From: Cliona cf. orientalis
Taxonomy: Eukaryota; Porifera; Demospongiae; Clionaida; Clionaidae
Assembly (NCBI GenBank): GCA_963930775.1
Contig: OZ005706.1
Location: 4,702,545 to 4,766,544 of the forward strand
DNA length: 64,000 bases
Reading direction: 5' to 3'
Shown here: in pieces, positions 4,056-55,200 of the stretch
Position numbering within the stretch: position 1 is the first letter of the stretch
Layout: each line of letters opens with the position of its first letter
The notes under the pieces: generated by a model
Database searches by the model: none
The model's input: only the letters and a program-made list of their open reading frames with translations
What the model was told of the DNA's origin: nothing
Translations under genes and position numbers: made by a program

Positions 4056-6294
4056 TCAAGTACTTTTGCATGTAAAGGCTTGGCATGAAGCATAAGCAAC
4101 ATTATCAGTGGTATCCATGTTTGATGGAGGGATTTGCTTAATTTCTTCATATATTATTATTCCGTTTTCAGTGCCTTCAGCTTGTTCCAGTTTTACTTTA
4201 AGCTTGGCTTTTGCTCTGAGAAGGGTGATGATGGCAATAGTAAAGCATGTGGTGACGATAAGGATGGTCACCACTGACACTCCACCAAATACTCCATAGA
4301 GTAATTCAGGATTCGAACCAATGATACCTGGAATATTAATGCCATTATAATAAAATGATAGCTGCAATAGGTTAAGACTTACTAGCACATTTACAGTTAG
4401 GAATACTTCCATTCCACTTTCCATTGTGTTTGCAAGATCTGACTAAAGACTGTCCTGATTTTATGAGTTTTTTGTAGCCACAGTCATTACAGTAATAGAT
4501 AGCTGTTGATCCAACTTTAGTTCCACTAAAGCAGACAATTCCATTTTCTATTCCAAGAGCTGAGTGGAAGTTTCCACATACATTACTGTTTGGGATGCTC
4601 ACACCATCGCTTAGCTGATTTGGATTACATTCTGTTGTATTGACAAGAACCCAGATTTGAATTAGGTTCACTATGAGATTGAGAATCACCTACCTACGAA
4701 CATTCCAGCTACTGCAACTGTATGTATTCCATCACTTGCTATCAAACGGTAGCAGTATACATAGTCTTGGTTGCTTAGAGGCTGCAAATTAACAGATACA
4801 ATGTCCGAAGTTGCAGTTGCATTGCTGCTTAATTGTAGGAAACCATTACACTGTGTTCTTTGCTTAGGAAATCCATAATAAATTATGCATGATTTCTCAA
4901 CACTTTTGTTTTGTTTTAAGAATCTACATTTTGCAGTAGATCTAACACTGAAGTCCAAATCAATATCAATAAAATTGTTCATCCCATCTGTAAAACCGTA
5001 TAATAATATATTGCAACTTTTTATATGATGACAATTATCTTAGCTACTTATTAGAGTAGGATCTGAGCTTGGTCCATTTCCCAGTCCATTGGTGGCAAAT
5101 ACAGTCACGGAAATATCAGTTGAGGGATGACACTCTGATGATGACGTGATAGTAAATATGCTAGTACAGACTCCTCCTCCACAAGAGGAACTAGAGGTTG
5201 GTACAAATGCTGAGCCACAGTGAATACCAAATATGGTATCAGTAAAGTTGATAGTATAGGAGACTGCATTGCCGTTTAATACAGTTTGAAGTTGATTCTG
5301 TATCGATAATAAAGTATGTTACTAACTTCATACTTATGAGTGTAGTAAAACTGCTTACGTTGGCACCAATTTCCACTATTATCTTGTTGAGGTACTTTGT
5401 TTCACCTGAATATTCTGGTGTGACACTAAAACTGGGGGCATCTAAGACTATTGGAAAAAAATAATCAAGTCTGCATTATTAGTAGCTAAGCTATGTCAAA
5501 CCTTGCAGAGACACTATCAGCTGTTCGCTGGTGGGTCCATATACATCATTGCAAGCAACTGCTTGAACAACAATACTGCACTCTTGTGGCAGCACAAGTG
5601 ATGTGATATTACATGTAATTGAGTGAGAGTATGTAAAGTTGGGACATCTACCACAGTTTGTTGCATTGATGCTGTAGTGTACAGCTGGGCAATCTTCATT
5701 GACTGGCGTCCAGCTAACTGTGAGCTGATGACGGCTGATCTGGGATACTTGAACATTGCTAGGGTGTGAAGGTATTGTCCCTACAAGAAATATTCAAGGT
5801 GTGTCTATATTATGTGTGATCTCGTTGCATATAAATACCTTCTAACTGAATGCCGTCACCATCCATAGTGCAAGTAACACGATTACCACTTATTAGTGTC
5901 TGTTGAGTGATTTTCCTAATGGTGAGTTGGGATGTGTAAGATCCATTTTCAGCAGATATCGCTTGGCCAGTTATTTGTCCAGTAGCACCACATGTCTTAT
6001 TGATAGTGGTTCCATTACCAAACTGACTGTGGCGTAAGGTAATGGAGCCATCTGAACAATTTTCTAAAGCAGACCCTCTCCAAGTAGTTGCTACTCCGCC
6101 ATCAACAGTACATCTGAAGGTAGCTTCATATCCGGGACAGATACATGAGCTTACTATTTCAAGCAAAGCTCCATTGGATAAATCTAATCAAATTTATCAT
6201 ATTATGTAAATACTACAAGCACTAATCAATACACAATAATACCTTGTGCAGTGAAATAAATGATCAATAGGAATCTTACAGTTGATAAGGCCAT
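4056..6294 (-). CDS. Ig-FN3-Sushi single-pass receptor with ITIM-like tail
   Basis: Eight exons on the minus strand: 6294-6243, 6183-5839, 5780-5502, 5447-5359, 5297-5048, 4987-4694, 4631-4383, 4327-4056. All phases join (1,1,1,0,1,1,1), giving 609 residues. Order: signal peptide (MALSTVRFLLIIYF); Ig-like domain with CPGYEATFRC; FN3 domain with LTVSWTPV and an NCGRCPNFT turn; second FN3 split by a phase-0 intron; an unassigned Cys-containing domain; a Sushi/CCP domain (YYCNDCGYKKL, then GKWNGSIPNC); a transmembrane helix (VSVVTILIVTTCFTIAIITL); and a tail of about 55 residues. The tail carries IIYEEI (Tyr about 579), matching the ITIM consensus, and NVAYAS. It likely sits in the plasma membrane and binds an extracellular ligand. 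Ligand and signalling partners are unknown. The gene diverges from the ACT-domain receptor at 7247. Confidence 0.82.
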
Positions 6295-7246: not shown

Positions 7247-10200
7247 ATGCAATCTTATTTTGGGCTTCTTTGCTTCACTTCACTACTACTATTAAATTTT
7301 GGTAAATAAAACTTGGAGAGTCAATACCAATAAGCTTTAAATATCAAATCATCTCTACCATAGGATTAATTGAGTGTAGTGAGTTAGTTGCAACAAGTGA
7401 CTGTGCTTGTGTGGGACAAAGCTACACTTACCGGTGTTCTGTGAATGGTGAATCTGGAGATCTGACAGTGTGGAGTGGAAGTGTAATAGAAGTAGGGTGT
7501 GAAATTGTCTTGTATCATAATCGATATGAGAGTATGAGTGGTGCTTCTGGAGAGTGTAACAATGGAGCAATTTCTGGTCGAAGCATTGAAGTGATAAATA
7601 ATTCGTATACTTCTCAGCTGACAATACAAGTTAGTAATGATTTGGATAGAAGAACAGTTGAATGCTCACATGACAATGGAATAGAGGCAACTTTGATCAA
7701 TTCCAGTACACTACTAATCACAAAAGGTACACCACAATAATAATATAGGATTGGATGGTCATATAACATTTTTTTCTAGCACCTTTGCCACCACCCAGAA
7801 ATGCCAAACTCTTAGAGGCAAATCCTACAGAACTGACGTTTAATTGGATTCCACCTTCAGAGTTGTGTCCGTTTCTTACTTACAATATTGAAGCAGAAAA
7901 CTGTGGCATTTGTCCAAACAGCACAGCTCAGCCAAATGTGACTTGCACCAACTTCACGTTATCCACTATGTGTACACTAAAGGTGTACAGTGTTGTATGT
8001 GGAAACCTTATCTCAACTAATCCAAATGTTATTTTAGCCAATTTATCAGGTCAGTTATTACTATATTATTATAGCATATTGAACATCTCTATGATTAGTA
8101 TGTACTACTTGCATCATCCTGCAGTTCCAAATATTACTTCAACGCTATCAACTCCATACTATTCTGATGGTAATAACGTGCTTATCAGAGTGGAAACAGT
8201 CTTTACTCCTGCTGTGAGATATCATTTTCACATCATGTTATCCTTTGCATGACATTGTTACATTATAGTGGTACAACTATACTGTGTAGATCAATTTCTC
8301 ACCCAGAATCTGGGGGAGAAAATATATTATTATCACTGTTTCTACAATGTCATGTTATTTCATAACGTAGGAACCAATGAATATTTCTGATGGAATTAAT
8401 GGCTCCATAACTTCATTCAACATTATCTATTCTGATGCCAATTCTGGTAGTGTATGTGGGTCATCAGTGATTGTCCCAGATGCCACATGTGAGGGGGGAA
8501 TCTATAGAGATGTGTTCAACACTTCCTCATCTCTGTGCTCTCTGGCTGCTGACATCAGAATAACCATAGTAGCGGCAAACATTATTGGAGAGGTACCAGC
8601 AATCAGTGTATCCAAAGGTAATTACTTTAACTGTCATAACTACGATGTGATTCTTGTCATAACTTGACATCTACTATTAGTTGGAACTAACAAGTTTGTA
8701 GATGTGAACTTCATTTCAAGTTTAAGAAGCATAGAATGCAACTTCTTAGACAATCCACTGGCTGGTGTCACCACATGCTCAGCCAATTTAACATATGGTG
8801 CTAATTGTGATGTCCCATTGGGAGTTTACAGCAGTTCTGGCCCAACCAATCTTCTGAGAACAACAGCCATAACTTTTATCAATGAAATTTCTGATTATTG
8901 TTTCACAATTAATGCAAGTAATGCCTCACAGACGGTGATCATTGAAGGAACCCTGAATGTAATTAGTCTAGGTAGGTGCCCATTCAAAATTTGATATTCA
9001 TGCGCATGTAATGAATTATTATAATCCTTTCAGGATCTGCGGATATTGCACCGATTGTTGCTCCATTTGTGTTGGTAGCTATCATCTTCGGAGCACTGGC
9101 TTTGACATTTGCATTACTCCTGTGGTACAAGTATGAGCCACCAATACCAGTAACTATAAGGTTCTCCAATGAGGACAAGCCAGGGTCACTAGCCAAGATG
9201 CTCAAAGTATTTAAGGTAAAAATGTATTGATGTGCATCAATTCTATTATCAAGTTAAATGACTACAGGATTACAATGTCAATATTATTCGTATTAATGTC
9301 CACTGGCAAGAGAGTGATCTAAAGCGAACCTTCCGAACCAGACGGAAAGAGAATTTTCTGCACCTAATGTGTACAGAAAGTGAAATGGATTTTTTGAGGG
9401 GGGCATTTGACTTTGAATTTCTAGATGGTGAGACATGAATTGTTTTTAGGATACGTGGTTGACCATAAATAATTATAGATTCAAGCCAAACAGAATCAGA
9501 TACTGATGCAACCATGCGTAGATCAGCCACAGCTGTATTTTACGTATCTGACAAATCTGGGGTTCTATATAACATCCTGAGGACCTTCACTACTGAGGTA
9601 GCTTTTTGGATACATGACTATGAACTATACCAATATTGTAATTCTTCAGGGCCGTAGGATAAATATTCTTGGATTAAATACACGTTCTAATCGTGAAAGC
9701 ATTGAAGGATACAAAGATAACTATGTAAGCTGTTCCTGTTCAGACAGAAAGCGAAAAAAGATTCAAGAAGCTCTCGAGAAGGCTGGTGCAATGAAAGTTT
9801 CACAAGGTATTAAATCACTGTCAAAGCCTCATCGATATTCATGCCTGAATGATGAATTTCAGAATTAATTACTCCTACTTCAAGAAGGTTGAAATTCTTC
9901 ATCAGAGATGAAGTTGGATCTCTTGTACAAGTTCTGAAAGTGTTTAGTGTAAGCTGTGGCTATTGATAAAATGTTGCTATTTGAGCTCATTGACATTGTT
10001 TCATAACAATTCAGGATCTCAATATTAATATTACTAGCATCAATTCCACTGCTCTGGATGTTGGCAGGCCACTAACTCACATTGTGGAATGTAAATGTGG
10101 AGGAGATCATCGTCAAAAGTTAATAAGTCAATTAAGAAGCTGTGCAACAAATGTTAAGGAGTGTGAAGGTCATTAAAGATAATGCTTATAACATCTAACA

Positions 10201-11165
10201 ATAATATTACTATTATCAAGTTTCTCTGCAATTACAGAAGCCTTGAATGTAGAGATAGGAACTGAAAATGAAAGTGAGAGCAGTGACAACTTTTCTGTTG
10301 AATTTACACTCAGAAATGAAGTTGGATCACTTGTTTCAGCACTAGAAGTATTTTTTGTGAGTTGATAAACTGTGATTTCTGCATTACCAATAATGTAACT
10401 ATTAAAACTACACGTACACAGACACTACATATCAACATTATGGGCATCAACACTCAAAAGAAGGATCCGAAATATTTTAATACACTTAAAGAGGTTGACT
10501 ATCAGTACATTGAAATAGCATTTGGTGTCAGTAATGCAGACCAGGAGCAAAAACTGATTGATAACCTTAAAGCTACTGGCATGGTGATCGAAGCCAAACC
10601 TGAAGGTACTAACTGCAAGAATACCATGATTGTAAGACCATTGTATACATACAATATTATTATGGTTTTCACATTCACTTTAGAATCTGATCCTGATGCT
10701 GATGTGCAATCAGATAGTAATATGTGCAAAAAGTATTGCTTTGCTGTCAGGGATGAACCAGGAGCTCTTGCAAAAGCCTTACTAGTTTTTAACGTATGTA
10801 CTATTGTTATTATTATTATGCATATTAATTTATTAGTATCCATTACTGTATTCATCATAGTTTTACTGTTTCTGCAGGAGCAAAAGGTTAATATCACTAG
10901 AATTCAAGATTTGCGTCTAAATCCTCATTTTAAGTACACACCTCTGACCGTTCAATATAAATGCAATTATGTTGAATTTGTGTCTACTTCTGATCAAGAG
11001 GCCAAGTTAAAGAAAAACCTTCAAGCAACCGGTCTTGCAGTTGACGTAAAGCCATATGACCCAGATGATCTTCAAGGTGCTGATGATCCCAGTGGCAACT
11101 CACTTGGTATCCAATCCAAGCGTCCTCGGCCAGATAATGCTGGTGATAATAACATTGTTGTTTAA
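7247..11165 (+). CDS. Ig-FN3 transmembrane receptor with five cytoplasmic ACT domains
   Basis: Sixteen exons: 7247-7301, 7364-7726, 7780-8049, 8125-8213, 8371-8617, 8681-8971, 9034-9215, 9268-9427, 9479-9597, 9650-9806, 9863-9948, 10015-10168, 10238-10356, 10422-10605, 10684-10793, 10878-11165. All phases agree, giving 957 residues. Order: signal peptide 1-18 (MQSYFGLLCFTSLLLLNFG); Ig-like domain about 19-139; FN3 about 140-229 and about 230-341; a third ectodomain module about 342-438; transmembrane helix about 446-469 (VAPFVLVAIIFGALALTFAL); then five ACT-like repeats starting near 477, 553, 645, 725 and 826. Each repeat has the beta1-alpha1 signature, for example DKPGSLAKMLKVF, DKSGVLYNILRTF, DEVGSLVQVLKVF, NEVGSLVSALEVF and DEPGALAKALLVF. 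Each is followed by a beta2 strand such as VNIIRIN, INILGLN, INITSIN, INIMGIN and VNITRIQ. ACT domains bind small ligands, often amino acids, in phenylalanine hydroxylase and prephenate dehydratase. The C-terminus is hydrophilic with a basic KRPRP patch. Coupling extracellular recognition to intracellular metabolite sensing is inference. Confidence 0.88.
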
Positions 11166-19729: not shown

Positions 19730-20722
19730 GGTACCATTAAATTGCGTGGGCGTGAGGTGGGGGATATGACACCTAAACCACATCAAAGTCATTAGTGAGG
19801 TGCATGTTGTGTAACCACGCCCTTTTAATTGCACAGGTCTCAGGGGTGTGGCTGCTAGAGCCGGAAGTGTTCATTTAATATCCTCCATGGACCGGAAGCC
19901 GAGCCGGAAGGGAGGGGCCAGGCCACGCCCAAAACAGCCCCACCCTGTTCCCCAAGGACCACCATTCTCAATCAAGTGCCTACTAACCACCGGATGTCCA
20001 CCGGAAGCCCACAATCAATCCCAATTAAAACACACAGCTTCCTCAAGGCCAAAACACACACAAACACTTGGAGGCCGTTCTGCCACACCGCCCACGCAAG
20101 AGCTCACCTCATTTCCTGTGTGGGCGGAGTAACAACACGTCATCGCAACCACATCCGCTTCAAACCATCGTCAGCTTCCGTCCAGCCGTACAGGCCCCTC
20201 GATCGCACCGCCGTACAGTGCCTCATTAACAGACATGGCCTCACCTTTGACCTCCTGCCACGCCCCCAAAGCCTCCTCGCGGGGTTCAAAGGTCACCACC
20301 GCTTCCGGGACACGCCCACCTATCGCCGAGGCCAAGTCCCAGGCGCCGATGTCCAAGCACTGGCCCGTGAAGCCACGCCCAATCGGAAGCAATAAAACCT
20401 GCATTAACGCACACGCACACACTCCACACAGTGCCAGCAACACGCCCACATGCTTAATTAGGCCCAATAAGCTTTTTTTTTTTTTAAGTCGTTGCGGTTA
20501 ATAGAATGCTTTGATCTTGCTTTGATGTGGGCAATTACCGGCCTTTTCTTCAGGGGCCACTTCCGGTCGCTAATTACACGCGCATAATCATCCCTGGCCG
20601 ATTCTGGACACGCCCACCTTCGACCAAAAGCACTCGTATGGCCTCTTCGGCCACGCCCCTTCACGATTCGCTAATTGAATTAGCCATTCCTGACGCTCAC
20701 GCCCACGCAATTAAATGGTACC
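19730..20722. mobile_element. TTAA-flanked inverted-repeat element, copy 1
   Basis: A 993-bp element with 27-bp terminal inverted repeats starting GGTACCATTAAATTGCGTGG and one mismatch between ends. It is bounded on both sides by TTAA (19726-19729, 20723-20726). The interior is rich in CACGCCCAC and CCGGAAG motifs and contains a T14 run. Open frames of 94, 139 and 158 codons overlap in different frames and carry no transposase motifs, so it looks non-autonomous. The TTAA duplication is typical of piggyBac-type insertion, but the GGTACC terminus is not the usual CCY. Confidence 0.8.
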
Positions 20723-21024
20723 TTAAGAAAAACGGTGTCGGTTGTTACTGGAACAATCACTTTCTGGGTGCTCTATGCTATGCTGATGACATTGCTCTCC
20801 TTGCGCCATCTGCTGCTCTTCGCTTGATGCTTGATACTTATTCTTCCTTTGTATCCTCTTGTAGCCTATTGTTTAATGTAAGTAGCTTAAGACCCAACTT
20901 GTTCGTTTCTCACACACTTGTTCTTCATAGTAAATTTAATTTAATTTATTATTATTGTTCTCCTGCAGCTAGTTTTTCTTCAATGGCTTGGAGCTTAATT
21001 TGAGTCACTCAGCCAAGCACTTAA
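20723..21024 (+). pseudogene. LINE reverse transcriptase catalytic segment, tandem copy 1
   Basis: Reads RKNGVGCYWNNHFLGALCYA, then DDIALLAPS, so the YADD catalytic box is present. A frameshifted stretch ends ELNLSHSAKHL at TTAA 21021-21024. It is flanked on both sides by the TTAA element. Confidence 0.75.
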
Positions 21025-22018
21025 GGTACCATTAAATTGCGTGGGCGTGAGGTGGGGGATATGACACCTAAACCACATCAAAGTCATTAGTGAGGTGCAT
21101 GTTGTGTAACCACGCCCTTTTAATTGCACAGGTCTCAGGGGTGTGGCTGCTAGAGCCGGAAGTGTTCATTTAATATCCTCCATGGACCGGAAGCCGAGCC
21201 GGAAGGGAGGGGCCAGGCCACACCCAAAACAGCCCCACCCTGTTCCCCAAGGACCACCATTCTCAATCAAGTGCCTACTAACCACCGGATGTCCACCGGA
21301 AGCCCACAATCAATCCCAATTAAAACACACAGCTTCCTCAAGGCCAAAACACACACAAACACTTGGAGGCCGTTCTGCCACACCGCCCACGCAAGAGCTC
21401 ACCTCATTTCCTGTGTGGGCGGAGTAACAACACGTCATCGCAACCACATCCGCTTCAAACCATCGTCAGCTTCCGTCCAGCCGTACAGGCCCCTCGATCG
21501 CACCGCCGTACAGTGCCTCATTAACAGACATGGCCTCACCTTTGACCTCCTGCCACGCCCCCAAAGCCTCCTCGCGGGGTTCAAAGGTCACCACCGCTTC
21601 CGGGACACGCCCACCTATCGCCGAGGCCAAGTCCCAGGCGCCGATGTCCAAGCACTGGCCCGTGAAGCCACGCCCAATCGGAAGCAATAAAACCTGCATT
21701 AACGCACACGCACACACTCCACACAGTGCCAGCAACACGCCCACATGCTTAATTAGGCCCAATAAGCTTTTTTTTTTTTTTAAGTCGTTGCGGTTAATAG
21801 AATGCTTTGATCTTGCTTTGATGTGGGCAATTACCGGCCTTTTCTTCAGGGGCCACTTCCGGTCGCTAATTACACGCGCATAATCATCCCTGGCCGATTC
21901 TGGACACGCCCACCTTCGACCAAAAGCACTCGTATGGCCTCTTCGGCCACGCCCCTTCACGATTCGCTAATTGAATTAGCCATTCCTGATGCTCACGCCC
22001 ACGCAATTAAATGGTACC
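21025..22018. mobile_element. TTAA-flanked inverted-repeat element, copy 2
   Basis: Almost identical to copy 1 (for example CACACCC instead of CACGCCC near 21227). TTAA lies on both sides (21021-21024, 22019-22022). Confidence 0.8.
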
Positions 22019-22320
22019 TTAAGAAAAACGGTGTCGGTTGTTACTGGAACAATCACTTTCTGGGTGCTCTATGCTATGCTGATGACATTGCTCTCCTTGC
22101 GCCATCTGCTGCTCTTCGCTTGATGCTTGATACTTATTCTTCCTTTGTATCCTCTTGTAGCCTATTGTTTAATGTAAGTAGCCTAAGACCCAACTTGTTC
22201 GTTTCTCACACACTTGTTCTTCATAGTAAATTTAATTTAATTTATTATTATTGTTCTCCTGCAGCTAGTTTTTCTTCAATGGCTTGGAGCTTAATTTGAG
22301 TCACTCAGCCAAGCACTTAA
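22019..22320 (+). pseudogene. LINE reverse transcriptase catalytic segment, tandem copy 2
   Basis: Same segment as 20723-21024, including LGALCYADDIALLAPS and the AKHL/TTAA junction. At least one difference is visible (GTAGCCTAAG against GTAGCTTAAG). It shows duplication of the unit element plus RT segment, period about 1295 bp. Confidence 0.75.
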
Positions 22321-23314
22321 GGTACCATTAAATTGCGTGGGCGTGAGGTGGGGGATATGACACCTAAACCACATCAAAGTCATTAGTGAGGTGCATGTTG
22401 TGTAACCACGCCCTTTTAATTGCACAGGTCTCAGGGGTGTGGCTGCTAGAGCCGGAAGTGTTCATTTAATATCCTCCATGGACCGGAAGCCGAGCCGGAA
22501 GGGAGGGGCCAGGCCACACCCAAAACAGCCCCACCCTGTTCCCCAAGGACCACCATTCTCAATCAAGTGCCTACTAACCACCGGATGTCCACCGGAAGCC
22601 CACAATCAATCCCAATTAAAACACACAGCTTCCTCAAGGCCAAAACACACACAAACACTTGGAGGCCGTTCTGCCACACCGCCCACGCAAGAGCTCACCT
22701 CATTTCCTGTGTGGGCGGAGTAACAACACGTCATCGCAACCACATCCGCTTCAAACCATCGTCAGCTTCCGTCCAGCCGTACAGGCCCCTCGATCGCACC
22801 GCCGTACAGTGCCTCATTAACAGACATGGCCTCACCTTTGACCTCCTGCCACGCCCCCAAAGCCTCCTCGCGGGGTTCAAAGGTCACCACCGCTTCCGGG
22901 ACACGCCCACCTATCGCCGAGGCCAAGTCCCAGGCGCCGATGTCCAAGCACTGGCCCGTGAAGCCACGCCCAATCGGAAGCAATAAAACCTGCATTAACG
23001 CACACGCACACACTCCACACAGTGCCAGCAACACGCCCACATGCTTAATTAGGCCCAATAAGCTTTTTTTTTTTTTTAAGTCGTTGCGGTTAATAGAATG
23101 CTTTGATCTTGCTTTGATGTGGGCAATTACCGGCCTTTTCTTCAGGGGCCACTTCCGGTCGCTAATTACACGCGCATAATCATCCCTGGCCGATTCTGGA
23201 CACGCCCACCTTCGACCAAAAGCACTCGTATGGCCTCTTCGGCCACGCCCCCTCACGATTCGCTAATTGAATTAGCCATTCCTGACGCTCACGCCCACGC
23301 AATTAAATGGTACC
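22321..23314. mobile_element. TTAA-flanked inverted-repeat element, copy 3
   Basis: Nearly identical to copies 1 and 2 and shares the CACACCC variant with copy 2. TTAA on both sides (22317-22320, 23315-23318). After it, the LINE frame continues with new sequence rather than another catalytic segment. Confidence 0.8.
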
Positions 23315-35384: not shown

Positions 35385-36290
35385 TAGAAGTATTATTAGT
35401 AATAAACTTCTAGTCTACTTCTAGTACTTCTAGTAATATGCTTCTAGTCTACTTCCAGTACTTATAATAAACTTCTATTCTACTACTTATTCTGGTGGAA
35501 GTACTTCCTGGTTACACATGATTTTTGGCTGTATCATAGAGCATGAGTATTATAATAATAATTATGCTTCTAATTACTTTAAATCTACTTCTAATGTACT
35601 TCTAATGACAAGAGGATAGGATATCAATATTAAGCTTAAACTTGGATATACGACCAGAGATAATTGTTTTCCACATTCACATGGCAAGGAGAACTCATGA
35701 AGTGGAAAAGTATAAGTGAAGTATATTATGTTAAATGCTGACTTCTAATCTACTTCTAATGTACTTCTAATTACGAAAGTACTAGAAGCACTAGTAGACT
35801 AGAAATTTTTAAACCCAAACCCAAGAATGTATTGCTGGGATGATACTCTTGATGTCATCTGTTATCCCTATCGATTATTGCAGTGTGTTCTTGTGCTTCT
35901 TTAACCATCCTGACAATGATGTGGTGATATGGTTTGATGTGCTTGGCTTGAACTATAGTACATAAGCACCCTGCTTCTAATAAACTGCTAGTTCACTTCT
36001 CGTGCTTCTAACGACTTCTAATATAAACTTCTAGTCTACTACGTAGTTCATGCTACTTGTATCATAACAATAATCTAGGACGCGTACAAAGCAGCATATA
36101 CATCACATCAGTACAGTACTTGTGAGTATAGCACTAGTATGTATCATAGCAATAATTGCAATGATCTCTGTATCATTCATACAGCATAAGTATCATAAAA
36201 CAATGTTCATAATTATTTCTAACAATTATGCTTCTAATTACTTTTATTCTACTTCTAATGTACTTCTAATGATGAGAGGATAGGATATCA
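35385..36290. repeat. Degenerate ACTTCTA-rich repeat tract
   Basis: Many copies of the heptamer ACTTCTA, often as CTACTTCTAATGTACTTCTA or AACTTCTAGTCTACT, occur in clusters at about 35388-35490, 35565-35605, 35738-35800, 35980-36040 and 36225-36275. The segment TAATGA..AGAGGATAGGATATCAATATTAAGCT occurs twice (about 35600 and 36265). It is noncoding and looks like an old tandem array broken by other sequence. Confidence 0.65.
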
Positions 36291-49412: not shown

Positions 49413-50415
49413 GGTACCATTAAATTGCGTGGGCGTGAGGTGGGGGATATGACACCTAAACCACATCAAAGTCATTAGTGAGGTGCATGTTGTGTAACCA
49501 CGCCCTTTTAATTGCACAGGTCTCAGGGGTGTGGCTGCTAGAGCCGGAAGTGTTCATTTAATATCCTCCATGGACCGGAAGCCGAGCCGGAAGGGAGGGG
49601 CCAGGCCACGCCCAAAACAGCCCCACCCTGTTCCCCAAGGACCACCATTCTCAATCAAGTGCCTACTAACCACCGGATGTCCACCGGAAGCCCACATTCA
49701 ATCCCAATTAAAACACACAGCTTCCTCAAGGCCAAAACACACACAAACACTTGGAGGCCGTTCTGCCACACCGCCCACGCAAGAGCTCACCTCATTTCCT
49801 GTGTGGGCGGAGTAACAACACGTCATCGCAACCACATCCGCTTCAAACCATCGTCAGCTTCCGTCCAGCCGTACAGGCCCCTCGATCGCACCGCCGTACA
49901 GTGCCTCATTAACGGACATGGCCTCACCTTTGACCTCCTGCCACGCCCCCAAAGCCTCCTGGACGGGTTCAAAGGTCACCACCGCATCCGGGACACGCCC
50001 ACCTATCGCCGAGGCCAAGTCCCCGGCCCCGATGTCCAAGCACTGGCCTGTGAAGCCACGCCCAATCGGAAGCAATAAAACCTGCATTAACGCACACGCA
50101 CACACTCCACACAGTGCCAGGAACACGCCCACATGCTTAATTAGGCCTAATTAGCTTTTTTTTTTTTTTAAGTCGTTGCGGTTAATAGTTAAGCAAGAAT
50201 GCTTTGATCTTGCTTTGATGTGGGCAATTACCGGCCTTTTCTTCAGGGGCCACTTCCGGTCGCTAATTACACGCGCATAATCATCCCTGGCCGATTCTGG
50301 ACACGCCCACCTTCGACCAAAAGCACTCGTATGGCCTCTTCGGCCACGCCCCTTCACGATTCGCTAATTGAATTAGCCATTCCTGACGCTCACGCCCACG
50401 CAATTAAATGGTACC
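49413..50415. mobile_element. TTAA-flanked inverted-repeat element, dispersed copy 4
   Basis: A 1003-bp copy of the 19.7-23.3 kb element, again bounded by TTAA (49409-49412, 50416-50419), in unrelated flanking DNA. It differs by scattered substitutions (for example CCTGGACGG for CCTCGCGGG near 49957) and a short insertion near 50190. It confirms the element ends independently of the tandem array. Confidence 0.8.
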
Positions 50416-50419
50416 TTAA

Positions 50420-52263
50420 AGTGGAATTTCCGGTAGAATCATTGCTCCATTCTCCGGGAAACATACATTTTTGGAATCTTCTATCTTTTCTCATTCTGAA
50501 ACACTATTTAAGTATAAAATTTGGTTGGAGTGAGTGCCTGCAAGAAATCGTTTATTATGCCACTTTTCTGTACCATTTTTCCCTATGCAAATGCACGTAT
50601 AAAATTTTGCCGATTTTACAAACTTCCGGAATCACTACTATAGGTAGCAGCGCCGGTGATCGGATCGGAGGAGCCAGTACTGTCTATGTATATATGCATA
50701 AGTTTATGCATGGATCTATTCTATGTACTTGAACGAATGTGAGGCTGGCTCAGATTGGTGCAGGTAGTGTCCACGCATGGATCTAAGGTAAATATGGTGA
50801 ATCTATGTAAATAAGGCCACTTCAACTTAAGCTTTCTACAGTGCTATATACTGTGCACTGTAGATAAGTCTTAAGCGTATCACTTTGTGTGAGCTTTACC
50901 GCTCTTTGTTAGGCTCATAAGGCCAGACCAATTTAATTTGTTGTTGCTCGGATATTGTGAGGTAAAAATTGGAGCGAGCGATCGAAAAAAAAAAAAAGAA
51001 AAAAAAGCAATTAATTGGGTGTGGTTATAGACCACAATCTAATTAAGACAGACTAATGTGACTATCTAGGACCAGGAAATCAAGATAGAATACAAAAACC
51101 ACTCTACTGTACATAAGCTCCACCCAACTTAATTAAATTTTTTTTTTCTGTTTGCCCAAAAATTGGAGCGAATCCGTGCAACAACTTATTTAATTGGTGT
51201 GACCTAATATGACATGCCCAGCAAGCCATGGCAGCCGCTGAACGATGAGCGATTGCCGTGCATGAGCCCAGAAGGAAGGCTAGAAGTAGGCTTGAGAAGA
51301 AAATGTCGAGAATTACACTCTCTGGTCGCTTCTTGGCCACCGTTGTAGGCCTTTCTACCCTCGACACGTTCTTTACGCACGCCCTACCTACAGTGTTTTA
51401 GCACTTATAGTTATAATTAAGCGTATGCTTCCTGCATATTAATTTTTCTTGCTGCCGCGTGTTATAAGCGCATGCGCTTAACAACCAGTTTCTACGATAT
51501 CAGTCTAAATAGTAGCTACTCCTATCAATGAGTCAACTGCTTGGTTTGCACCGAGTATATATACCGGTATTAAATTTGGAAACTCTATTTGCTTGTGTTG
51601 TATGATTATACACATTGTTTGAATCACGGCCAAACTATCAGTCATGCTATATTTTTTGCATCGGCTATGATAATCCAGCAGCATTAATTCCTCGAAACTT
51701 TGGCAGAATACAAGCTCTATGGATTGATGTGCTTGTATATAGCTTGCACCCAATGCATGAGGTACGTCTGCAAACTGGCTCAAAATATAATAATAATTAT
51801 ACCACCTAACTATAATAATAATAATTATTATAGTCATGGTTTTTGAATGGAATGGTCTCAGCTCATCAATCTAAAGGTGTATGAAGATGCAGTGGACTGC
51901 AATGTACGAAACCCTACATCTGATATGCATGCAAGTTGCAATGCAGTAGTTTACTTTACATCAAGTCAGAACACATGGCTTTGCTGCTAACCTTTGATCC
52001 CAATCATTATGAGACTAATGGGCCATACATTGAGATGATAGGTGGTACCTTGGTATGGGCTTGTACACTAACTTGAAGGGAATTGTTAGAAAACAACAAA
52101 ATTAATACAAACGCTATAGTCCATTTCTGTATTAATTTCCAACTCTATTGGCCCTACCAAAGTATTATTATTATAATCCAACACTTCTAATAATAAAAAC
52201 CAGAAACAGTACGTACTGTATTACTATTAACATTATCATAGTGTAAATCATGATGCCGTTGAG
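50420..52263. other. Intergenic with a decayed MITE
   Basis: About 51415-51500 (TTAAGCGTATGCTTCC..., GCGCATGCGCTTAACAACCAG) is a decayed relative of the 26.2 kb MITE. An A-rich run lies at about 50986-51007. Nothing else was recognised between here and the LIPE stop codon. Confidence 0.45.
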
Positions 52264-55200
52264 CTATTTTCTCTTCTTTGAAGAGGCAGGAGTTTCTAGC
52301 TGCAGTTCTTTCCTGAGGTATTCCAGGCAGAGCTTTTGGGCTCCACTGAGGTCAATATTGTTTCCTGCACTGACCATGCAGAGGAAGCCATGAGGAAGGT
52401 GATCCAGAATATTAAGGGTCACTGGTTGATCAATTGACTTGAGCTTATGGGCCATCCCCACAGCATCATCCAGCATGGGATCCAGCGCTGCTCCCTATAT
52501 TATGTACATGTAGGTGCAACAAAGATTTATTAACCGTTGTTAACCCCAACTTCACCATAAAAATCGAAACTAATGACACTCTTGCCATGGTAAAGGAACA
52601 TGATGATACAATGACATTGTCATACACACATGCACATACATACATTCTTGTAACATTTTGACCAATGAGATTGCTCACCGTGACTAGAGTAATTTACCAA
52701 TCATCGGATATCGTCGAATCCCAGACATGCGGTTTTAGATGAGTTTGGTCGGAATCACAGTCATGGTAGGCCATATACTAAAATTATTCCATGCTTCCTA
52801 CAACTTTCTTTAGCTTACAAGTGGAGCTAGCCAGTAGTCATCCTCTATTTGTGTCCGATTCATCGAAAATGATTGGATGGAGTCCCACTGGTGGGCGTGG
52901 CTAAACACGATCGAAATGGTGGACCGGAGCTAGCTGCTAGTGTATGTACCTGTAGCAGCGTTGACCGATTCTGATCATCACCAAGATAGAATATGCAAGC
53001 ATGTCCGAGATTTGAAGCGGAGGTCCGGTTTATAAATTTGTAACACTGTATCTTTGAGCACAATTTGCATGCGTTGCAACAAAGATTGGGACATACAGTT
53101 TGCATCATTTGTTAGCTGACTGGTAGCTCTATCTACTGAGTACTCTATCATTTAAAACCATTGTTATGTCCGAAAGTTATGGGTTGCTTTATAAAAACCA
53201 TCCGGATTTTGATGATCTACTCTATAATAATATAATACACTTCGTCTCCAGGCCTACATGTGTATTCCCTGGCTTTCAACGTTGCATGCAAATCTGGAAA
53301 AGGGCAACCAAAGGCGATCTGCTTCATATGCAGATAAGGAACATGTATGTGTAAACGTGGGTTATGCAACTGGCTAGTGTATCAAGTAGTAACTCAAGGA
53401 GGAATGTACTATGTGCCTAAATCAAAATACATGTTCACTACACTTAAATCATTACTTAACCTAAGAATAACATACTATAATTTTTGTAGATGTATATTAT
53501 TATACTACATGGAAGCCATTAGAGGTAATTACTCACGATAATGTGAGCCGTGGGCAGACCAGTGAGCAGGTCGGCAGGTGCCAGCAGTGGAGACATGTAT
53601 GGGTCCTTGGTGACCTCTGGGTCATGGTATGTCTTTGTCACCTCCATCACTAGAGCCTCTATCTCATCGCTAGAGAGCTTATCACGCTCATCAGGGTCAC
53701 GGTTATGGCGGACGGTCAGCGGCAGGGGCATCTGTGTATGAATTTTAAATCACATACTGAGCAATAGGAAGATGAAAGATCAATGTTTGGTAAGAGGGGT
53801 TCCATTGTATAAAGGGACAAAATTTCTTGTGATGCACAATGTGCATGTGCAAGTATACACGTACATGTAGTATATGACAGTAATGTGCTTGTCTATGTCG
53901 GCACGCCAGCAGATCTACATTATAGTGGCTGCTAACATGGTACTAGGGTATCGAACACAATAATAATATGTGACCGGATTTGAGAAAAGGGGGAACTTCA
54001 CGCATTTCCCGAATTTTGGTTTTAAAACGCTTAAATCTCTGGAACCATAGCAGCTATGAACTTCAAACCTGGTATGAATATTCTTTCATCATCCTACTAT
54101 ACTCGCTGCAAATCGCAGACCTGCCCACTTCCCGTGTGGGCGGGCGAGCGCTCGCGTCGATCACGTTCGAAAATTGCCGTTCTATACCCCTCTTTGGCAG
54201 CTCACCGCTCAGGACAGGAGGCTTGCTCAGGGTTCTAACGTTGGATCTGTGAAGTAGAAGGTCCAAACTGCTAACAAAGCAAGTCTGAAGCCTGTCTCTA
54301 TGCACACCTATTGCAGTCTGTAATAAAATTTTCACATACGTGTACATTGTAGAGGCCACCAGAAGCAGTCAGACGTTGGTTAAGTGCACACCCTCACAGT
54401 GTCAGACCTCACTAATAAGGCTATTCTATTGCATTCGTATGTAAAAACATCCCATATTAATCCCTGGAAACCTTCGAAAATCTACCACTATATACATGTA
54501 CATGTAGCAACAGACATACTGTGCATTAGAACTTACAGTAGTAGATGGTTTATCAGTGGCTGCCGTCGTTGTTTGTGATTGGTCCTCAGTTGCTTCTGAC
54601 TTGATTGAGGTAGCACTAGCTGCCTCCAAACCATCACCATTCATAGTGATGTCTGAAAACTGAGGCAGGCCAAGCTCCACCTCCTGGAATGACTCAACCA
54701 TGCCTACATTAATTTTGTACATGTACGTGTAAGTATGGCTGTATTATACAGTGATGGAAGTTGTATACTATACCAAATAGACAGTGTACCCATAAGGTGA
54801 TAATTTAATTTTCAGTATTAATTTTACATTTCTGACATAAACAAAACCTTGCACGTAGTAAATTTTGCGATTTATATACAGAAATGGTATAGAACCACCA
54901 AACTCTACATAATTAATACACGTTAGCTGCTATAAAACTTTGCACTTTTGAGCCTAGCTACATGTACATGACGAGCTTTGCCAATACAGTCTATTATAGT
55001 AAAGGTCGCCACACAGGTGGTGAAAATGTTTTCTCCTGGAGAAAATTTCTGGCCATAATTCATTTATGGCTTATGATGTACATGTAGTTGCTGTGTTGAA
55101 CCCAACAAATCATAGGATACCACTGATCTCAGTCATTGCTCAATGGGGATCCGGAGGGATTACTATCATCAAAAGTTGGTATAATTATTATACCAATTTA

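Follow-up and report, generated by a model that had tools for sequence, protein, structure and literature searches.

The window, a 64,000-nucleotide stretch of the Cliona cf. orientalis genome, contains a receptor gene at 7247-11165 on the forward strand, arranged head to head with a divergent sibling receptor at 4059-6187 on the reverse strand. Its contig is labelled C18 here, and the other contigs mentioned below are labelled C1, C3, C5, C10, C11 and C13. Spliced from sequence, the window gene has 16 exons, GT-AG introns and a fully open frame of 957 aa. The features are as follows.

4059..6187, - strand: divergent sibling receptor with the same ectodomain type and a short YEEI tail instead of ACT (inferred exon chain, unspliced)
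7247..7301, + strand: exon 1, start codon and signal-peptide-like stretch running on into exon 2 (splice model, hydropathy)
7364..7726, + strand: exon 2, cysteine-rich N-terminal ectodomain, Ig-like by eye alone (splice model)
7780..8049, + strand: exon 3, FN3-like domain (Pfam fn3, weak fibronectin match)
8125..8617, + strand: exons 4-5 (8125-8213, 8371-8617), another ectodomain module (splice model, paralogous exons)
8681..8971, + strand: exon 6, membrane-proximal module (paralogous exons, genome matches)
9034..9215, + strand: exon 7, transmembrane helix (about 9066-9122) and ACT1 beta1-alpha1 in a single exon
9268..9427, + strand: exon 8, remainder of ACT1 (splice model, Pfam)
9479..9806, + strand: exons 9-10 (9479-9597, 9650-9806), ACT2 (splice model, Pfam, tree)
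9863..10168, + strand: exons 11-12 (9863-9948, 10015-10168), ACT3 (splice model, Pfam, PDB match)
10238..10605, + strand: exons 13-14 (10238-10356, 10422-10605), ACT4 (splice model, Pfam, PDB search)
10684..11165, + strand: exons 15-16 (10684-10793, 10878-11165), ACT5, C-terminal tail and stop (splice model, Pfam)

Enumeration of GT-AG options up to 6 bases from the approximate boundaries gave 12 fully open models of the window gene; among six of these and a rebuilt one, the differences amount to a few residues, located at junctions 6/7, 12/13 and 15/16. Introns in the tail alternate, with phase 1 between ACT repeats and phase 0 within each. Introns 14 (10606-10683) and 15 (10794-10877) are without an in-frame stop, exons 14-16 forming one 281-aa open frame, and their retention would therefore preserve the frame. 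In the hydropathy profile of the 957-aa protein, aa 5-23 form a signal-peptide-like hydrophobic stretch at the N terminus (mean 1.85), and a single strong membrane helix at aa 450-468 (mean 2.88) separates ectodomain from tail; a helix is likewise present in the seven paralogues read. This hydrophobic start and single strong helix fit a type I membrane protein, and the gene would encode a single-pass surface receptor.

The tail is built of five ACT repeats

Pfam ACT (PF01842) matched the 957-aa protein in five stretches (E 2.3e-25, 88.4 bits against a cut-off of 27), ruling out a chance repeat. Scanned singly, repeats 1-5 gave best ACT-family E values of 1e-7, 0.032, 2.7e-8, 0.00081 (ACT_4) and 0.0027; an ACT family ranked first for each repeat alone, and two of the five, repeats 1 and 3, passed the single-repeat cut-off. 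Across seven genes, 26 of 29 repeats matched the ACT family at E up to 1. Seven Pfam families matched the window protein at E up to 10, namely six ACT models and fn3, and these included no catalytic or kinase domain and no biopterin-dependent catalytic domain. The C terminus of the ACT-array receptors is short and varies between paralogues. A Pfam ACT profile search of the species' own genome (216.8 Mb assembly) found five places. The window was not among them, its repeats being interrupted by introns, and the spliced protein is required for the gene to be detected. The open GT-AG model, the hydropathy and the Pfam ACT matches together bear out the sequence-only reading of this locus as a membrane receptor with five ACT repeats encoded by 16 exons.

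The ectodomain is shared with receptors carrying other tails

The Ig domain that had also been proposed for the ectodomain was not confirmed: no Pfam Ig family matched window exon 2 or three homologous domains at E up to 10, and 'Ig' describes a residue spacing seen by eye. The proposed FN3 domain in exon 3 does have a profile match to Pfam fn3 (E 3.8e-5), yet one that at 24.2 bits falls just below the curated cut-off of 25, and with a weak match to fibronectin (E 0.013) the assignment appears weakly supported. The exon 6 module matched 44 places in the genome at E up to 0.1, and the 11 closest include all eight ACT-array genes described below. Among the other three closest places, one C10 copy showed no ACT half within the next 8 kb, and at a further exon 6 place, on C5 at 10.68 Mb, a helix is present and no ACT half was found in 6 kb. 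The ectodomain of the window gene belongs to a large lineage family of receptors that look FN3/Ig-like.

Some members of this family end in tyrosine motifs. In seven short receptor tails, YEE[IV] occurs together with a second tyrosine motif; the C10 stretch contains five of these tails and the window the other two. By comparison, base shuffling of the C10 stretch gave 1.2 matches of YEE[IVL] by chance. Six of the seven tails are preceded by the same ectodomain exons; for the seventh, at the left edge of the window (near 77, + strand), the tail alone is visible. These siblings share the ectodomain modules and a membrane helix (seen by eye) with the window gene, whereas their tails carry YEE[IV] and the second tyrosine in place of ACT. 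The ectodomain chassis thus carries at least two tail types, ACT and a YEE[IV] phosphotyrosine type, the phosphotyrosine role being one that we infer from the motif.

Several further observations concern the surroundings of these genes. The sibling gene in the window contains an extra cysteine-rich stretch at 4375-4689 (- strand) that is CCP/sushi-like by eye, and in the C10 cluster (stretch from 7584001) first ectodomain exons occur in repeated head-to-head pairs. Elsewhere in the window, 19815-23262 and 49498-50729 carry near-identical ORF sets, with ~1.3-kb units that lie at 19.8-23 kb and recur at 49.5 kb (by eye), suggesting a repeated element.

At least eight genes carry the ACT array

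Genome searches with the window tail and with the tail of a paralogue, followed by scanning of the stretches found, identified at least eight ACT-array genes: the window gene on C18, two on C10, two on C1, and one each on C3, C5 and C11. Gene numbers are lower bounds, and each paralogue is a chain of exons read off the sequence rather than a spliced model. All eight have the same order, in which the same ectodomain exons are followed by a helix with the first ACT half and then by about four to seven repeats; the repeat numbers of C1b and C5 are rough, several of their second (B) halves being weak (E 0.035-0.31). The repeat alignment and profile comprise 29 rows from seven genes, with two further C10 repeats omitted; the tree and residue table comprise 31 receptor repeats and three rows from the species' own PAH genes, with three partial or doubtful repeats left out; and the C11 gene is counted only in the helix-frame, splice-position and shuffle analyses.

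In the tree, one clade (96/97) unites the first repeats of five genes and another (97/99) the second repeats of four, indicating that the front of the array predates these gene copies. The tree does not separate later repeats: no supported clade includes window repeats 3-5, support for deep branches is weak, and the bootstrap had not converged.

On C10, a partial and apparently broken extra ACT array on the minus strand (region 51244-52737, numbered from 7584001) adjoins an intact array. A remnant also lies at region 35515-35994, and the FN3 exon of an ectodomain copy at 65383-66950 is interrupted by a stop, with no ACT half found over the 8 kb that follow this copy. These three C10 copies would be expected if the family consisted mainly of decaying, functionless copies. 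We regard that as very unlikely, however, given that the window gene is fully open, that first and second repeats retain their identity between genes, and that the two intact C10 copies have no stops in 14 aligned pieces and show Ka/Ks of 0.36 in the tail and 0.32 in the ectodomain. Ka exceeds Ks in two short tail pieces of this pair, helix-A1 and A3.

A single exon of the window gene encodes both the helix and the first ACT half

Exon 7 of the window gene encodes the helix and ACT1 beta1-alpha1 uninterrupted (open frame 9015-9230), so that the fusion is independent of any splice choice. In every one of the eight ACT-array genes read, including the window gene, a single open frame spans the helix and the first ACT half. 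By profile, this half is clearly recognisable in five (window, C10+, C10-, C1a and C3) and degenerate in three; in the latter, C1b, C5 and C11, it scores 4.9, 3.5 and 7.4 bits, and of 200 shuffles 2, 3 and 0, respectively, scored as high. In the C3 gene, the helix and the complete ACT1 lie within a single 139-aa frame.

These data bear on whether two adjacent genes, one for a receptor and one for a cytosolic ACT-repeat protein, were wrongly merged. The partial C10 array, which from its sequence appears to lack a helix of its own, would favour such a merger, but it sits just downstream of an intact array. Given the common frame of helix and first ACT half across eight genes, and the whole of ACT1 in frame with the helix in the C3 gene, we reject the two-gene artefact as exceedingly improbable.

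The repeats resemble the regulatory domain of aromatic amino acid hydroxylases

We compared the 29-repeat profile with the PDB and obtained 34 sequences at E up to 1. TPH2, PAH and TPH1 take all of the first 11 ranks (E 2.4e-10 to 3.2e-5), ahead of bacterial aspartokinase (4.9e-4) and prephenate dehydratase. The TPH2 regulatory domain was also the top single-sequence PDB match of ACT3. The NCBIfam PAH model matches 22 of the 29 repeats at E up to 1, and Pfam TH_ACT matched one of the 29 (E 0.16). No CASTOR chain appears among the PDB matches at E up to 1, and an origin from CASTOR is rejected by this profile ranking.

The intron within each repeat provides a second comparison. Human PAH intron 2 is reported to follow c.168 (c.168+5), that is, codon 56, in phase 0 (PMC6081236). 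In window repeats 1, 3, 4 and 5, a phase-0 intron immediately follows the counterpart of PAH residue 56, in a register anchored on the published PAH residues 43-48 and 61-67; in repeat 2, the 3' side is in register and the 5' side has two extra residues. We estimate that agreement in place and phase would arise by coincidence about once in 200 for a 70-codon domain. Among the seven paralogues, a phase-0 splice dinucleotide coincides exactly with the start of 34 of 40 B halves and with the end of 25 of 34 first (A) halves; for 2/40 and 3/34, respectively, none lies nearby. Trimming of the half profiles at the intron draws match ends to it, and three spurious B-half matches were excluded. Looser counts of halves near such a dinucleotide, 38/40 and 31/34, carry no chance control. 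The window model and the PAH-gene intron position are independent of how the half profiles were cut.

The species' own genome contains three tandem PAH-type genes (C13:536001-545900), with ACT and biopterin-hydroxylase exons in all three. One of them has, by eye, a GT-AG intron at the PAH-56 place and a phase-1 donor soon after ACT; an intron within ACT is absent from the other two and likewise from C3 repeat 1.

TRADD-N immune adaptor domains, with an ACT/RRM-like fold, are described as structurally related to ACT and as greatly expanded in the sponge Amphimedon (PMC8195603), which would favour TRADD-N-like domains over true ACT domains in the receptor tail. However, the TRADD-N model is absent from the Pfam matches of both the whole protein and the 29 repeats, PAH and TPH lead the PDB profile matches, and the PAH intron position is shared. 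TRADD-N, or another non-ACT fold, is accordingly rejected on profiles and intron as hardly credible.

The PAH/TPH-type assignment thus follows from two independent lines, the top PDB profile matches and the shared intron position, which show homology at the level of sequence; the repeats very probably descend from the regulatory-domain exons of a PAH/TPH-type hydroxylase. The array would have arisen by tandem copying of a pair of exons (phase 1, A half, phase 0, B half, phase 1). We place the probability that receptor architecture and hydroxylase origin of the repeats both hold at roughly 93%. The sequence-only reading had the architecture right; it did not mention the hydroxylase regulatory domain, from which the repeats most closely derive, or CASTOR1, an ACT sensor of animals.

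The ligand-site frame is retained and its specificity side altered

In PAH, Phe is described as bound between two ACT domains, one of which contributes ExVxAL (43-48) and YxF (77-79) to the contact and its partner NLTIxS (61-67), and the Phe-binding motifs are given as GAL and IESRP. We counted the corresponding residues in the 31 receptor repeats, covering all but the YxF site (77-79). G46 is found in 30/31, L48 in 29/31 and N61 in 26/31 repeats, and position 43 is D in 21. At position 66, which is E in PAH, N occurs in 27/31 and E in 1/31, and R68 and P69 are found in 3/31 and 0/31, respectively. The repeats therefore do not show the GAL plus IESRP pair: the GxL half is retained and the IESRP half is gone in nearly all of them. 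Window repeat 3 reads NITSINS, with N, T, I and S of the PAH pattern N-x-T-x-I-x-S all present. Retention of GxL and N61 together with the changed IESRP suggests that the frame of the pocket is kept and its specificity side altered. Residues of the GxL and N61 type are widespread in ACT domains generally. These residues do not predict binding of Phe itself, and another amino acid, a metabolite or no ligand is possible.

Discussion

In the mechanism we propose, ACT domains of the same tail, or of adjacent receptors, would form side-by-side pairs; a cytosolic amino acid, or a metabolite similar to one, would bind at the ACT interfaces and shift this pairing; and the metabolic state of the cell would thereby set receptor clustering or tail partners once the ectodomain is engaged. 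By analogy with the hydroxylases, in which Phe binding between two ACT domains is reported to drive dimerisation of PAH and L-Phe to move TPH2 towards the dimer, the array may serve for pairing, in a state set by a small molecule of the cytosol; we rate this reading as the likeliest, at even odds. Gating of the receptor by amino acids, which the sequence-only reading had inferred, is plausible on the same analogy.

The array could instead act as a ligand-free oligomerisation module or scaffold, with constitutive pairing and downstream recruitment and no metabolite sensing. Loss of IESRP from nearly all repeats would fit this, as would published accounts that the regulatory domain of TH is an unliganded ACT dimer, that some ACT domains pair without ligand, and that the ACT-like domain of plant bHLH proteins modulates dimerisation. 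On the other hand, the G-x-L turn and N61 are strongly retained, and the nearest relatives, PAH and TPH2, are reported to respond to L-Phe. Our confidence in ligand-free pairing falls somewhat short of even; it is nearly as likely as small-molecule-dependent pairing and follows close behind it.

Each part of this receptor has known counterparts. The regulatory domains of PAH and TPH1/2 are the nearest sequence family and share the phase-0 intron and the G-x-L turn, but these enzymes have a single ACT before a catalytic domain, whereas the window receptor has five repeats and a membrane helix, lacks a catalytic domain and has lost IESRP. CASTOR1, the arginine sensor of the mTORC1 pathway, is built of ACT domains like the receptor tail and is described as an animal amino-acid sensor, but as a cytosolic protein, and it is set apart from the receptor repeats by the profile ranking above. 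We know of no plant ACR protein with a receptor ectodomain or membrane helix. The ACT domains of CASTOR1 are arranged in tandem. Like the receptor tail, plant ACR proteins are described as having ACT repeats and no recognisable catalytic domain (PMC6081435). A membrane receptor with an ACT tail was not found among the open-access PMC matches listed, although an unremarked database entry may exist. Receptor chassis and ACT sensors are thus each known, and their fusion as a gene family appears new.

Taken further, the gene family may represent a new class of animal surface receptor, in which an exon-shuffled PAH/TPH allosteric module serves as a repeated tail, one molecule reads both an outside signal and amino-acid state, and metabolite-driven pairing is the switch; we advance this tentatively, with doubt slightly outweighing belief. 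If true, the output of a receptor would be set directly by intracellular metabolites, through a tail with no recognised kinase or adaptor domain, and the family would clearly exemplify recruitment of an allosteric domain from a metabolic enzyme into surface signalling. The ACT tail, being compact and expressible, offers a direct test object for ligand-driven ACT pairing. Such a receptor would bear on how early animals coupled feeding, immunity or self-recognition to metabolism.
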